Made by a program: the position numbers and the translations under genes. Below, in pieces: positions 53,942 to 61,409 of a DNA stretch of 64,000 bases; within the stretch, counting starts at the first letter, position 1; the number at the start of each line of letters is the position of its first letter. This DNA is from Chloroflexota bacterium (GTDB lineage Bacteria; Chloroflexota; Anaerolineae; Anaerolineales; Anaerolineaceae), in contig JAAYKH010000068.1 of assembly GCA_012522475.1 (NCBI GenBank), positions 1-64,000 on the forward strand, in the 5' to 3' direction. A model generated the notes under the pieces. That model saw only the letters and a program-made list of their open reading frames with translations. It made no database searches and was not told where the DNA came from.

Positions 53942-54172
53942 TTACTTGAATTGGTCTTTAAATTTTTCTTTTGCCCGCCCAATCCTGACCATGGTTACAA
54001 TTCCAATGAAACCGATCAGCAACCCTGCTACCGACAAGCTGTAGGCCAGAAAGTTCAGAAAGAACGTTGACCGCAAAATTTGTAGCACCATCAACAAAGG
54101 CAAGATCACGCTTACCAGCATCATGCTGCCGCCCAGCAGGATTGTTTTCCAGGGTTGCCATTTAATGATCAT
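53942..54172 (-). CDS. Small two-helix membrane protein at the end of the ABC operon
   Basis: A 76-residue membrane protein starting MIIKWQPWKTILLGG with two hydrophobic segments (about 9-32 and 40-62) and a basic, Lys-rich tail. ATG 54172 overlaps the stop of the upstream ATPase as ATGA, so it is translated with the operon. An upstream Met at 54187 is possible. No family is recognised; its role in the transporter, if any, is unknown. Confidence 0.65.
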   Translation of the reverse strand: MIIKWQPWKTILLGGSMMLVSVILPLLMVLQILRSTFFLNFLAYSLSVAGLLIGFIGIVTMVRIGRAKEKFKDQFK

Positions 54173-55218
54173 CTGTACAACCAGCAAGCGGCCATTTGGC
54201 CCGGTTTCGGCGTAAAGTGTGGCGGTTCTTCAACCTCGCACAAGCCCCTGATGATATAAGGGCAACGAGGATGGAACCGGCACCCAGAGGGAGGTTTAAC
54301 CAGGCTGGGGGGTTCTCCCGGCGGCACATCGCGGTAGCGGGTGGCATTGTCGGCATCCGGGTCGGACGTAGCTTCCATCAATGCTTTGGAATAAGGGTGC
54401 AGCGGATCGTGCACAATCGCGTCGATCATGGTCTTCTCAACAGCCTGTCCCGCATACATCACAAAGACGCGCTCAGAGAAGTAGCGCACCGTCGAAAGGT
54501 CATGCGTGATGTAAATCACCGCCAGATGGTGCTTTTCCTGCAAAGATTGCATCAAGCGCAAAATTTCAACGCGTACCGAAGCGTCCAGCATCGAGACAGG
54601 TTCATCAGCTACAATCAACTTGGGTTCGAGCATCATCGCGCGGGCCAGTACAACCCGTTGCTGCTGTCCACCACTGAGCATATGGGGATACTTCTCCAAA
54701 AAGTCTTCCGGCGGGCTCATTTTAACTTCTTCCATGGCCCGGTAAATTCTTTCACGCCGCTCTTCTTTGCTTTTTATACCGTTAATGATCATCGGTTCCG
54801 CAAGAATTGTCTGCACATTCATAAATGGGGGCAATGCACCGTAAGGGTCCTGCTGCACATAACCCACATTAGAGCGAAAGGCGCGCATTTCTGAAGCTTT
54901 AAGTTGGCTCAGCGTCTGGCCTTCAAAGATGATATCACCTGCTGTGGGCTGGTATAACCCCAGGATGCTCTTCATCAACGTTGTTTTTCCACAACCGCTT
55001 TCTCCCACAATTGCAATCGTCTCACCATAATGGAGGTCAAAGCTGACTCCGTCAACTGCGTGAACATAGCCAGAAATGCCGAATCCAAATCGCCGCAGTT
55101 CAAACCAGATCTTCAGGTCCTGCACAGATAGCAACACCTCATCTTTACGATTGGTCTTTTGCGTTCCTTCTACCGGCGCCTCATGTGATTCTGTCAATGT
55201 TTTATCCATCATCATCAT
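54169..55218 (-). CDS. Oligopeptide/nickel-type ABC ATPase (DppF/OppF-like)
   Basis: A 349-residue ATPase. Walker A GESGCGKTTL, Q-loop VGYVQQDPYGALPP, signature MLSGGQQQR, Walker B LIVADEPVSMLD and the switch His in YITHDLS. The C-terminal oligopeptide-ABC extension with CRFHPRCPYIIRGLCEVEEP carries the Cys residues that bind an iron-sulfur cluster in some relatives. The start is one of four consecutive Met codons after AAGGAG. It overlaps the small membrane gene and follows the DppD-like gene by 6 bp. Confidence 0.93.
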   Translation of the reverse strand: MMMMDKTLTESHEAPVEGTQKTNRKDEVLLSVQDLKIWFELRRFGFGISGYVHAVDGVSFDLHYGETIAIVGESGCGKTTLMKSILGLYQPTAGDIIFEGQTLSQLKASEMRAFRSNVGYVQQDPYGALPPFMNVQTILAEPMIINGIKSKEERRERIYRAMEEVKMSPPEDFLEKYPHMLSGGQQQRVVLARAMMLEPKLIVADEPVSMLDASVRVEILRLMQSLQEKHHLAVIYITHDLSTVRYFSERVFVMYAGQAVEKTMIDAIVHDPLHPYSKALMEATSDPDADNATRYRDVPPGEPPSLVKPPSGCRFHPRCPYIIRGLCEVEEPPHFTPKPGQMAACWLYR

Positions 55219-55224
55219 TTCTCC

Positions 55225-56184
55225 TTATTTCACATGCAGCCAACATTTAACCGTGCGGCCTTCGACACTAACGGTCGGGGGATCTTCAACACAAGGCTCA
55301 AAGCGAGAAGGACAGCGGTCATAAAAGCGGCAGCTTGTAGGCGGGTTGAGCAAGCTGGGCGGCTGGCCGGTAATAAAGTCGGGTTCCTGACGGGCCCTGA
55401 GCCGCGGCACACTGTTCATCAGTTTGATCGAATAAGGATGCAGCGGCGCAGCGAAAAAGCGGTGGGCATCCCCGGTTTCCACGATCTGCCCGGCGTACAT
55501 CACAGCCACATCATCCGCCAGCTCACTGGAGGTAGCGATATCATGGGTGATGAGGATGAAGCTCATGCCCAGCTCTTTCTTAATCCTCTTAAGCACGTTG
55601 AAGATGTTTGCCTGAGTGAGCACATCCAGAGCCGAGGTCGGCTCGTCTAAGATGATCAGCTCGGGCAGCGAAACTAACGACATGGCAATCGCCACGCGCT
55701 GACGCATACCGCCGCTCAACTCAAAAGCATAGCGGTTCAGGAAATCAAGAGGCACACCCACATGCTGGAACATCGTCTTGGCCTGTTCCAGAGCAACTTC
55801 TTTGCTCATGTCATTGTGGATAATCGCGGGTTCAGCCACCTGATCGCCCACTTTCAGAACAGGGTTGAGCGAGTTCATGGCGGCTTGCGGCACCATCGAC
55901 ATCTTTACCCAGCGCATCTTAAGGCGGTATTCCTCATCCTTTAATGCCATGGTATCTAATCCGTTTAATAAAATTTTCCCGGAATAGGTATCGACATTCT
56001 TCGGCAGCAAGCGCAAGATCGCCCGAGCCATCGAAGTCTTACCACAACCCGATTCGCCCACAATCACCACGGCGCGGTTGCGACCTAAATCAAAGTCAAC
56101 CCCATCCACCGCGCGTACAACGCCTTTGGTGGTGCGGAAGAACAGTTGCAAATCTCTTACACTTAATACTGTATCAGCAGACAT
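55225..56184 (-). CDS. Oligopeptide/nickel-type ABC ATPase (DppD/OppD-like)
   Basis: A 319-residue ATPase. Walker A GESGCGKTSM, signature ELSGGMRQR, Walker B LIILDEPTSALD, His in LITHDIAT, and the C-terminal CRFYDRCPSRFEPCVEDPP extension. The VKMSMVPQAAMNSLNPVLKV Q-loop stretch is typical. It forms a heterodimer with the DppF-like protein. GGAGG precedes the ATG; 5 bp after the DppC-like gene. Confidence 0.93.
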   Translation of the reverse strand: MSADTVLSVRDLQLFFRTTKGVVRAVDGVDFDLGRNRAVVIVGESGCGKTSMARAILRLLPKNVDTYSGKILLNGLDTMALKDEEYRLKMRWVKMSMVPQAAMNSLNPVLKVGDQVAEPAIIHNDMSKEVALEQAKTMFQHVGVPLDFLNRYAFELSGGMRQRVAIAMSLVSLPELIILDEPTSALDVLTQANIFNVLKRIKKELGMSFILITHDIATSSELADDVAVMYAGQIVETGDAHRFFAAPLHPYSIKLMNSVPRLRARQEPDFITGQPPSLLNPPTSCRFYDRCPSRFEPCVEDPPTVSVEGRTVKCWLHVK

Positions 56185-56189
56185 CGATC

Positions 56190-57530
56190 TTATACCTCCC
56201 TCAATTTGGGATTAAAGATACGGTCGAGCGCAAAACCGATCATCGCAAAACTTAAACCAGTGATCATCAACAGAACTGCTGGCTGTAAAACCCAGTAATA
56301 GTACCCGTTGTACAGGGCGCCTTGCATCTGGGCATCGTTGATGACCTTCCCCCAGGTGGGCAAGATCGGGTCGCCCAGACCCAGCACCGCTAATGAAGCT
56401 TCCAAGAAGACATACGATGGAATCGCGCTGACCAATCCAGGGATTAGGATGGGGATGATGCGGGGCACCAGGTAGCGGTTGATGATGCGCCAGTTACCTG
56501 CACCATAGGAACGGGCAGCTTCAATATAGGCTGCCTCTTTAATCTGCAGGAAGATGGCACGGAAATTCTTGATGCCAGCGCCAAACAGGCTGATCAAAAT
56601 CACCACCCACAACATCGTCCAGATACTGCGACTGTAGAAGACCCCCACCATAATCAGGATTGGCAAGAAAGGCAAAAGCATATAAATCTCAGTGATTCGC
56701 TGAATGATCTCATCGGTTACACCGCCGAACCACACACCAATCGCGGCGATAAACATGGTAGTAAAAGTTGTCCCAATTGCGGCTAAAAACCCAAAGGAAA
56801 GGGCAATCGGCGCGCCCCATAACAGGGGCAGCAAAAGGTCACGTCGGCGGTGGTCGGTGCCAGCTAACCCGTGCACCTGCCCAAAGCTGACAAACTTGGC
56901 TTCGATATCCGAGCCTTCTTCAAACACAATCGTATCCACATGCAGCTCATAGGTGCCCTGCTGCACCTTATAAGGTTCCTCATCCGGAACTCGCAGCAAA
57001 CCAATCCGGGGAAGAACCCCGTCCAGCTTACGAACCAGTTTATCTTGCAGATCAAAACGGACGACTTCATGCTGCTTGGCAGTGATATCAGCGACTTTGA
57101 TCTTTTCGCCATCCGGTGTAAACCAGGTCAGGGTGACAAAAGGAGATTTTTCTTTATAAACTGAAGTTAATATCACCTGCAGTTCCTGCGGGAAATCATC
57201 ATATGGATAATCGAACTTAAACACCATCTGAATGTCCCACATGTCAGTCGTAACTTCAGTGACAGTTTTTTCAACTTCGTCCTCGGGGTTGGTGCTGTCG
57301 ATTATGATCGTTTCCGAGTATTTTTTTGTCCGGAACCAGTTAACATATGTCGGGCGAGCATTCCTTGGCGCCGTGCCTTGGATTTCTTCGCTTCCTCGCC
57401 ATTCGTAAATGGCTTCGCTATAGGGGATGGAAATTACAACATAAATCGCCAATGCCACCAGAAGGATGATCATGATCGAACCTAAAATGGCAGAGGGGAA
57501 TTGTTTAATGTTGTCAATGAAATTTTTCAT
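56190..57530 (-). CDS. Oligopeptide/nickel-type ABC permease (DppC-like) with large ectodomain
   Basis: A 446-residue permease; the usual length is about 300. After the first helix (AILGSIMIILLVALAIYVVI), residues about 37-225 form a polar, beta-rich extracytoplasmic region (for example TWFTPDGEKIKV, YELHVDTIVFEEGSDIEA), where normal DppC has about 40 residues. The core then follows normally: HRRRDLLLPLLWGAPIALSFG and the EAA loop EAARSYGAGNWRIINRYLVP. Its start overlaps the stop of the DppB-like gene by 4 bp. Confidence 0.9.
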   Translation of the reverse strand: MKNFIDNIKQFPSAILGSIMIILLVALAIYVVISIPYSEAIYEWRGSEEIQGTAPRNARPTYVNWFRTKKYSETIIIDSTNPEDEVEKTVTEVTTDMWDIQMVFKFDYPYDDFPQELQVILTSVYKEKSPFVTLTWFTPDGEKIKVADITAKQHEVVRFDLQDKLVRKLDGVLPRIGLLRVPDEEPYKVQQGTYELHVDTIVFEEGSDIEAKFVSFGQVHGLAGTDHRRRDLLLPLLWGAPIALSFGFLAAIGTTFTTMFIAAIGVWFGGVTDEIIQRITEIYMLLPFLPILIMVGVFYSRSIWTMLWVVILISLFGAGIKNFRAIFLQIKEAAYIEAARSYGAGNWRIINRYLVPRIIPILIPGLVSAIPSYVFLEASLAVLGLGDPILPTWGKVINDAQMQGALYNGYYYWVLQPAVLLMITGLSFAMIGFALDRIFNPKLREV

Positions 57531-58766: not shown

Positions 58767-61409
58767 CTAATCAACGGTCACGAATGTGAGCCCATCAGAG
58801 ACAGGAACAGCCACAAGGTTAGAAACAACCACAACCTCGAGGGTGTTGGAGCCTGCTGTCAGGGCGCCGGTGATTTCAGGTGTCAGAACAATCTCGAAGA
58901 GACCGTCTTCCACGCCAACAGCCTTGCCCACGTAGGCAATCTGGTTGGCTGCATCGACCACCAGGAAGTTCACACTGGTGATGTCATCAAGGGCATAAGG
59001 AGCACCCTCGAAGGTCACCGAGACTTCGTAAACCTCTTCGTCACCAATGGTCACACGTGTGGAACCATCAAGTTCCACGGCGGGGATCGGTGCATTTGCA
59101 AAGCGATTCCAGCGGGAAGCCAGATCCGGGAAGAATGGGTTGTTGTTCAAAATAACAGTACCCTCAACCGGGAAGGCGCGCTGCAGGTAGTAGGGGCCGG
59201 TGCCAAGCCAGAAGTGCCCGTAACGGCGGTGCCATTCGGTCAGGTTCTCAAGGCGCAGGGCCACTTCAGCCTCATCAACATACTCGCTGAAGATTGGCTC
59301 GTAAGGCATACCGCCTTCTTCTGTCCATTGATCCAGCTTGCCTTTCATGATCTCGATCGTCGGGCCAGCGATGTAGCTCAGGCGGTCGACATCCAAATCG
59401 GCAGCTTTAGCCTGCGAGAAGACAGCTTCATGGTCGGCTTCAGCCAAAAGGCCGAGATACAGGTTATGCCAGGCGCCAGGGCCCTGATCGTAGTAAGGCC
59501 ACCAGGTGCTCACGTTCAGTTCAGCATCCTGATAGTACACATCGGAGTAGGTTTCGATAACCAGTGGATCGGTGGAGATAATCTTGACGCCCTTGAATGA
59601 ACCCAAGAACGAACGCAATGTCGGGGCAGCAGCCGCATCATAGATAGCGCTATCCTCTTTACCACGATCAAAGGTCAAGATGATACCCATTAAGATATCA
59701 CCCACGGAGAACGGGCTGCCATCGTGCCATTTGACCACATCAAACAGGTCTTCCTGGTAGTAGGCCACGCTCTTACGCAGAGCGGTGACGGGGCCGGGGA
59801 TTTCAACTTCTTCATCCTCGGCAGCAGCTTCAGCCGCTTCTTCAGCAGCTTCAACAGCAGCAGCGTGCTTTTCACCAACGGTGATGAAACGCATTTCAAC
59901 AGGATCCCAGTCAGCCCAGGCATCATCGGGGACGAGAATCTCAGGGGCGTAGGACAGCTCAGCCCAATCCAGATTCTGGAATACAGGCAAGCCTTCTTCA
60001 ACGACGACTTCAGCTCGGTCGATGCGGTTAGGCAGGTACAGACCGGTGAAGGGATCCGGGTATGTCGCAGATTCCGAGGTGCCGCGGATCAGGGTCATGT
60101 CATAAATCCAGTTGGAGCCAGCAATCGGGTTCCAGGGCTCGGTGAGAATGCTGGGCATAGCCATTGTCAGAGAGCCGCCCTCTTCGCCAGCGCGCTGGAT
60201 GGTCAGCGCCCACAGGTAACCACCGCCCACGTTGCCGTACAGGTCAGCCGCAGCGGAGATGTTCTTCTGCTTGGGGGTAATGGAATTCTGGTCATACAGC
60301 CACAGGCGGGCGGAGTCTTTCATCGCCAGATCCAGAGCTTTTCCAATCAATTCTCCACGTTCTTCAAGCGAGGTGAAGTCCTGATAGGCAAGCTTTTCAG
60401 CAACATCGTAGAATTCCGGGTCGTTTTCATAATTCATCCACAGCGGAGCGGGCAAGCCTAAATCGGTGTAGAAGTAGGAAAAGTTGTCGCCCAGGTCGCG
60501 TGGGATCACAGTGGTGATCCAGCCGCCGGTGTAAATGTGGAACTCACCATCGTTCGGGTCGCCACTGTACCAGATCGGTGAAGCATCAGCAGCAGATTTG
60601 TAATCACGGATGACGGTGAAGCCAATGTCCTCAAGCTGGTTGGAAACGTAGTCACCAATTTGCAGGCGCTCGTCTTCGATACGGATCAAGACGCTGATCT
60701 CGACGGGCTCGCCTTCATAGGTCCACTTGCCGCCTTCCAGGGTTGCGCCCAGGGCTTCCATCTCAGCGCCGATCAGCTCAGCAGCCTTGTCTTTATCATA
60801 GGCATAGGCCAACTCAATAGCACGAATTTCAGCAGCAAAGGCAGCCGCGGCATTGGAGGCGCTGTTGAAGGTGGTCCAGCGGGGTGTGCCCAAACCACCA
60901 ACGATCTCCTGCACCATGTAATCACGATCAATGAGGATATTCATGGCTTCGCGAATTTTCGCAACGCCGAAGGGGTTCAGTTTGCCATTTTCCCACACGG
61001 GGCCGGTGGTGTTGAAGCTCAGCTCGTTGTAGGAGCCAGAAGAAGCGTAGGAATCAAGATTCGGGGCAGCTTCAACTTTAGCGGCTGATTCGGGGTTGGA
61101 TACGGTATAGACAAAGATGTCAATTTCCTCAACCTCGAGGCGGGTGATGGCAGCATCGGTGTTGGGCTCTTCAATCACGATGATTGTGTCAAACCAACCA
61201 CCTTTGCGATCAGAGACTTCAGCGACAGGTGCGTCCTCAGCAGGTACCTCAACCTCAACGGGAACCTCAACCTCAACCGTCTCAACAACGGTTTCAACAA
61301 CGGTTTCGATAATTTTTTCAGGTTCAACGACTGCGGCGGGTTCGCACGCGGCTAAAACCATCGCTAACGCCATAACGACGCCAAATACAGCTAATAGTTT
61401 CTTTTGCAT
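58767..61409 (-). CDS. Family-5 ABC substrate-binding lipoprotein, apparently circularly permuted
   Basis: An 880-residue lipoprotein (lipobox VLAAC, Cys22) with an acidic Val/Glu linker (23-65). Motifs of the peptide/nickel-binding family 5 occur in rotated order. Residues 72-405 hold what is normally the second half: EEIDIFVYTVSN, IREAMNILIDRDYMVQEIVG (151-170), YDKDKAAELI and DYVSNQLEDIGFTV. Residues 411-770 hold what is normally the first half: GGSLTMAMPSILTEPWNP, DPFTGLYLP, VVKWHDGSPFSVGDIL (558-573) and GTGPYYLQ (736-743). Residues 775-880 are an extra beta-rich, Ig-like domain. Usual length is 500-600. It is the first gene of the operon with two permeases, two ATPases and a small membrane protein. 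The ligand is unknown. Confidence 0.88.
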   Translation of the reverse strand: MQKKLLAVFGVVMALAMVLAACEPAAVVEPEKIIETVVETVVETVEVEVPVEVEVPAEDAPVAEVSDRKGGWFDTIIVIEEPNTDAAITRLEVEEIDIFVYTVSNPESAAKVEAAPNLDSYASSGSYNELSFNTTGPVWENGKLNPFGVAKIREAMNILIDRDYMVQEIVGGLGTPRWTTFNSASNAAAAFAAEIRAIELAYAYDKDKAAELIGAEMEALGATLEGGKWTYEGEPVEISVLIRIEDERLQIGDYVSNQLEDIGFTVIRDYKSAADASPIWYSGDPNDGEFHIYTGGWITTVIPRDLGDNFSYFYTDLGLPAPLWMNYENDPEFYDVAEKLAYQDFTSLEERGELIGKALDLAMKDSARLWLYDQNSITPKQKNISAAADLYGNVGGGYLWALTIQRAGEEGGSLTMAMPSILTEPWNPIAGSNWIYDMTLIRGTSESATYPDPFTGLYLPNRIDRAEVVVEEGLPVFQNLDWAELSYAPEILVPDDAWADWDPVEMRFITVGEKHAAAVEAAEEAAEAAAEDEEVEIPGPVTALRKSVAYYQEDLFDVVKWHDGSPFSVGDILMGIILTFDRGKEDSAIYDAAAAPTLRSFLGSFKGVKIISTDPLVIETYSDVYYQDAELNVSTWWPYYDQGPGAWHNLYLGLLAEADHEAVFSQAKAADLDVDRLSYIAGPTIEIMKGKLDQWTEEGGMPYEPIFSEYVDEAEVALRLENLTEWHRRYGHFWLGTGPYYLQRAFPVEGTVILNNNPFFPDLASRWNRFANAPIPAVELDGSTRVTIGDEEVYEVSVTFEGAPYALDDITSVNFLVVDAANQIAYVGKAVGVEDGLFEIVLTPEITGALTAGSNTLEVVVVSNLVAVPVSDGLTFVTVD

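Follow-up and report, generated by a model that had tools for sequence, protein, structure and literature searches.

A circularly permuted family-5 substrate-binding lipoprotein at the head of an Opp operon in Anaerolineaceae, and a permuted family with an apparently recurrent second rotation

The window analysed here, a 64,000-nucleotide stretch of an Anaerolineaceae (Chloroflexota) contig, carries a reverse-strand operon in which a substrate-binding lipoprotein gene is followed by genes for OppB, OppC, OppD and OppF (Table 1). The gene set of an Opp importer is thus present in a single operon: two permeases, together with two ATPases that carry oligo_HPY domains. We name the segments of the lipoprotein after their counterparts in canonical OppA/DppA proteins. 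The B half (B1, B2) corresponds to the canonical C-terminal half, relocated to the front of the chain, and the A half (A1, A2) to the canonical N-terminal half, relocated to the back.

Table 1. Features of the permuted binding-protein gene and its operon (window coordinates; residue numbers refer to the encoded protein).
Feature	Position	Strand	Basis or remark
Circularly permuted family-5 substrate-binding lipoprotein, 880 aa	58767..61409	(-)	order signal - B1 - B2 - A1 - A2 - beta domain
Signal peptide and lipobox, residues 1-22 (LAAC, Cys22)	61344..61409	(-)	from sequence
Flexible tether, V/E-rich, residues 23-66	61212..61343	(-)	low pLDDT
B half, residues 68-405 (B1 68-240, B2 241-405)	60195..61208	(-)	model match to OppA/DppA
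Beta-hairpin turn, residues 232-236	60702..60716	(-)	CP2 opening site in relatives; intact in window protein
Junction of old C-terminus and old N-terminus, residues 406-411	60177..60194	(-)	19-row alignment and canonical chain ends
A half, residues 411-770 (GGSL..WHDG..GTGPY..)	59100..60179	(-)	profile match to 7fi3_A and hhalign
Helical insertion in A half, A/E-rich, residues 513-541	59787..59873	(-)	variable in homologues
C-terminal beta domain behind new C-terminus, residues 773-880	58770..59093	(-)	high-confidence prediction
OppB-type permease, 380 aa	57527..58669	(-)	BPD_transp_1 1e-26; Opp4B-like
OppC-type permease, 446 aa	56190..57530	(-)	BPD_transp_1 1.8e-17; Opp4C-like
OppC insert of ~175 residues (residues ~45-220), ahead of transport domain	56871..57398	(-)	
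OppD-type ATPase	55225..56184	(-)	ABC_tran and oligo_HPY
OppF-type ATPase	54169..55218	(-)	ABC_tran and oligo_HPY

The lipobox is kept in most homologues, and the tether behind it varies in length among them. The junction between the two halves is short and conserved in an alignment of 19 rows, and the ends of canonical chains map to it. The beta domain, which comprises the last 108 residues, is kept in most homologues and absent from some, and residues 773-880 gave no Pfam match. The initial annotation had described this region as an added Ig-like domain; a beta domain is indeed predicted with high confidence, but “Ig-like” describes its strands and does not assign it to a family. Four homologues (L022, L023, L054 and L055) carry an insertion of ~95 residues in the A half, alanine/glutamate-rich in L022 and L023, at the site of the window protein's shorter A/E-rich stretch.

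In canonical OppA/DppA-like proteins the WHDG and GTGPY motifs lie ahead of the RxAxxxxIDR motif. The swapped motif order that had first drawn attention to the window protein holds in the translated reading frame, with RxAxxxxIDR (residues ~153-162) preceding GGSL (411), WHDG (561-564) and GTGPY (737). A PDB-wide phmmer search with the single window protein returned 7fi3_A, the OppA of Thermococcus kodakarensis, as its sole significant entry, in two stretches of swapped order: query residues 70-301 aligned to 7fi3_A 319-570 and 557-747 to 103-293 (2.8e-16 and 1.3e-06). A 19-row family profile gave the same picture, residues 70-308 aligning to 7fi3_A 324-583 (5.3e-32) and 480-734 to 64-308 (3.7e-15), with an overall value of 8.4e-48. 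Judged from these searches, the swapped-order match far exceeds chance. As a test of rotation, the family profile was aligned by hhalign to a profile built from 38 canonical family-5 proteins, whose genomes were partly related and partly more distant. Unrotated, it produced two matches in swapped order with scores of 213.0 and 69.1; rotated, it produced a single match of 403 columns with a score of 272.5, and the A half alone matched the canonical profile at 1.9e-08.

The Pfam model SBP_bac_5 (PF00496) gave a more partial answer. It scored 76.5 bits (cut-off 32.4), with residues 73-303 aligned to positions 148-352 of its 368, while the A half alone had no Pfam match; of the swapped double match to SBP_bac_5 that the initial annotation had anticipated, the second model half was found and the first was not. 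With other profiles in place of Pfam, the double match was seen by phmmer, by the family profile and by hhalign. One consequence for annotation is that Pfam recognises only half of these permuted proteins. The A half, with its WHDG and GTGPY motifs, is homologous to family 5, and the canonical A-then-B order is not found in the window protein, which on this sequence evidence is a permuted member of family 5 (PF00496, cluster C) by descent and not a canonical one. The Opp4-type equivalog NF045467 gave 24.1 bits against a required 650.

An AlphaFold2 model of the window protein, built from 19 rows, reached a pLDDT of 85.9 and a pTM of 0.81. In VIA-align comparisons, model residues 66-409 superposed on 7fi3_A 333-755 (Z 27.4, rmsd 2.7, 341 residues) and on DppA (1dpp_A) 202-507, reaching the canonical C-terminus. 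This comparison covers the B half, and the identity of the A half rests on profiles and on a relative with a different rotation, L057, of the B2-A1-A2-B1 type discussed below (CP2). The L057 model (pLDDT 91.2, pTM 0.88) matched in canonical order, as expected of the rotated chain: residues 216-755 aligned to 7fi3 34-531 (Z 28.7, 465 residues) and to DppA 1-346, so that the A half is identified with the canonical N-terminal half. The input for the window protein was an alignment of rotated homologues, which could steer the model; that for L057 had a different rotation, yet its model matches the same solved fold. All structural matches listed belong to family 5/cluster C, with no cluster B/type I fold among them. 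The models thus predict the family-5 fold in both halves, for the A half and B1 by way of L057.

The arrangement is widespread. A GTDB genome scan yielded 23 loci, and a genome profile search gave matches in 41 of 400 Chloroflexota genomes, in 64 of 100 genomes of the phylum Bipolaricaulota (that of locus L016) and in 28 of the 294 genomes of the class to which G393 belongs, all three counts including some canonical or partial matches. A plasmid collection returned two weak matches only. When open reading frames were classified with five segment profiles (B1, B2, A1, A2 and the beta domain), 76 distinct proteins showed the order B1-B2-A1-A2-beta, and no beta domain was detected in a further 33 (32 B1-B2-A1-A2 and one B1-B2-A2); the remaining orders were B2-A1-A2-B1 in six proteins and A2-B1-B2 in one. 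Contig ends truncate some of the proteins counted. The survey of homologues thus showed the B-A order in more than 100 proteins, mostly from Chloroflexota and Bipolaricaulota. Tandem pairs of permuted binding-protein genes occur at L059 (76-2466 and 3466-5697) and also at L063, and such pairs could give rise to further rotations.

A protein of this length invites simpler explanations. Binding proteins usually measure 500-600 residues, and 880 residues might suggest a tandem duplication, with both halves copies of one half or two complete binding proteins fused. That reading is hardly credible: A and B align to different parts of OppA, each to one half of it, no homologue contains any segment twice, and a single fold is predicted, with residues 66-409 matching only the C-terminal half of one fold rather than a complete one. 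Profile mapping rules out both the duplication and the fused double protein. It is just as improbable that an assembly error or frameshift united pieces of two genes. The sources are mostly metagenome bins, but the same order recurs in over 100 proteins that are 35-95% identical, nearly all of their reading frames are intact, most with a signal peptide, and the family occurs in single-contig genomes (G005, G112, G337, G039 and G186), which excludes a binning or assembly artefact. The profiles, the rotation test and the predicted structure therefore bear out the proposed permutation, as do more than 100 homologues that are colinear with the window protein. These same lines of evidence place the join of the old termini at residues ~403-411, in agreement with the 405-412 first suggested, and put the new termini between what was the NNPFF...W segment (~770) and the strand GGWFDTI (~70). 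We consider it highly probable, on the models and profiles together, that the window protein is a lipid-anchored binder of the Thermococcus OppA type, circularly permuted so that B comes first, the old termini are joined and A comes second, with a beta domain added, that adopts the ordinary two-lobed fold and captures peptides for OppB-OppC.

The finding is larger than first stated, as this widespread permuted family contains a second and apparently recurrent rotation. Six proteins (L026, L057, L139, L140, L143 and L147), 36-46% identical to L057, have the order B2-A1-A2-B1, here termed CP2. Their chains start with a signal peptide of their own, most with a lipobox, immediately ahead of B2, although the N-terminus of L143 is cut by a contig end and L140 has no lipobox cysteine. 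In all six the chain ends just past the B1 strand, at the hairpin equivalent to window residues 232-236, and the A2-B1 link that is broken in the window protein is present. Modelling of L057 predicts that this rotation folds correctly. OppB-OppC-OppD-OppF directly follow four of the six genes (L026, L057, L139 and L143), and L140 adjoins OppC, OppD and OppF. The L026 contig (PUNI01000588) is labelled as a Rhodobacteraceae metagenome-assembled genome while its operon resembles those of Dehalococcoidia, and the bin label may be wrong. A further protein, L112 (L192:2-1339, genome G648), shows the order A2-B1-B2, ends at the canonical C-terminus and precedes OppB-C-D-F. Its N-terminus lies past the contig end; from its segments it is likely to be in canonical order, and it nests among permuted proteins in the tree. 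No complete copy of L112 was found in 15 genomes of its order or 393 of its class.

The history of these rotations was examined with an IQ-TREE phylogeny of a de-rotated alignment of 42 rows and 564 columns. All CP2 proteins and L112 fall inside the B-A proteins without a beta domain, in several places, and four changes are forced by the starred tree branches. Against ordinary bacterial family-5 proteins, the permuted family groups with Thermococcus OppA in one clade (100/99). The B-A rotation may have arisen once or twice: Thermococcus OppA lies beside the divergent B-A clade (94/91), but the test does not reject a single clade of B-A proteins (p-AU 0.25). We tentatively propose a stepwise, repeated rotation as one possible course of events, in which A-B gave rise to B-A (CP1), this in turn to several independent B2-A-B1 proteins opened at the same hairpin (CP2), and at least one lineage (L112) then returned to the original order as A-B1-B2. 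If true, a single clade would hold a natural series of circular permutants, with the same operon type throughout.

Circular permutants have been described as arising through duplication and later trimming, or through fission followed by fusion. The B-A order most likely goes back to a tandem duplication in which the copies fused and the outer halves were then lost; a fused double intermediate, with a segment twice in one reading frame, was not found among the ORFs classified. The other route, in which A and B were once separate genes rejoined in the other order, seems to us unlikely, although it keeps some weight. One genome (G433:C8:10778-13145) has the permuted protein divided between two adjacent ORFs (matching profile 61-501 and 499-850), which may reflect a frameshift; this split sits inside the A half, away from the rotation junction, and no genome with a functional pair of A and B genes was seen. 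As to the second rotation, CP2 apparently arose more than once within one B-A sub-group, as judged from the tree. A single origin, with the tree misled by recombination or long branches, is rather improbable. It would account for the cut site common to the CP2 proteins and for the mutual attraction of L139 and L057 in single-segment comparisons of B1 and B2, but forcing CP2 into one clade lowers the log-likelihood by 252 units (p-AU 9.4e-05), and in each of the three segments the sequences closest to L147 by identity are B-A proteins from one clade. L140 likewise shares 58, 57 and 58% identity with L056, a B-A protein, over B1, B2 and A2, an evenness that indicates that CP2 proteins are not obvious chimeras. 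Single-segment trees disagree in places (L057 and L139), and local recombination may have played a part in CP2 history.

Few naturally permuted ABC binding proteins have been described, and we found one such case in the literature: TpMglB-2 (Tp0684) of Treponema pallidum, a circularly permuted glucose-binding protein assigned to “Cluster Bc” (PMC4990184). Like the window protein it is a lipid-anchored ABC binding protein with a natural circular permutation; unlike it, TpMglB-2 is of type I/cluster B and binds sugars, only part of one lobe has moved, and a single rotation is described. Its authors suggest that tethered receptors may be permuted as an adaptation (PMC4990184), which for the present family would be a guess. 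For family 5 itself, the original claim that no permuted member has been described is uncontradicted, as none was found in the openly accessible literature searched. Thermococcus OppA (SBP family 5/cluster C) belongs to the same sequence family and shares the predicted fold in both halves, but has the canonical order and no aligned C-terminal beta domain. Canonical DppA, OppA and NikA resemble the window protein in an SBP_bac_5 match above cut-off in the B half and in the Opp operon, and differ in having the A half first. A widespread family with two rotations and an apparent, repeated re-rotation makes both the change of chain order without loss of function and the choice of hairpin testable. 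It is also relevant to the design of biosensors, for which permuted binding proteins are currently made by engineering.

With order, homology, predicted fold, spread, operon and the polyphyly of the second rotation established by computation, the function of the protein can be considered. The ligands of family 5 also include nickel complexes, sugars and opines. The window protein is most likely a tethered peptide receptor of the Opp importer, given the biology of Opp importers and the pentapeptide bound by its closest solved relative (7fi3). Peptides would be captured in the inter-lobe cleft and passed to its own OppB-OppC permease, powered by OppD and OppF. Through the rotation the lipid tether, which canonically precedes the A half, would sit at the A2/B1 loop instead, altering the point at which the putative tether leaves the protein and not, as far as can be predicted, the fold. 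The Opp operon is conserved beside family members, and the OppC insert occurs in 26 of 26 complete OppC proteins beside them, in either rotation, compared with none of the eight other OppC proteins examined, which makes it a trait of the family and not of the rotation. For this insert Pfam gave only a sub-threshold DUF5065 match, and we would guess that it contacts the unusual receptor.

Several relatives carry further domains or neighbors. In L019:6852-10097 a matrixin-like zinc protease domain (Peptidase_M10 7.2e-07; HEIGHTLGLD motif) is fused ahead of a B-A protein, a fusion compatible with peptide capture. Canonical-order family-5 binding proteins lie less than ~10 kb from a permuted one at L007:15532-17490, G200:C2 and G343:C4, and at L185:2306-5998 a permuted binding protein is followed by five PKD domains in an open frame of 1231 residues.
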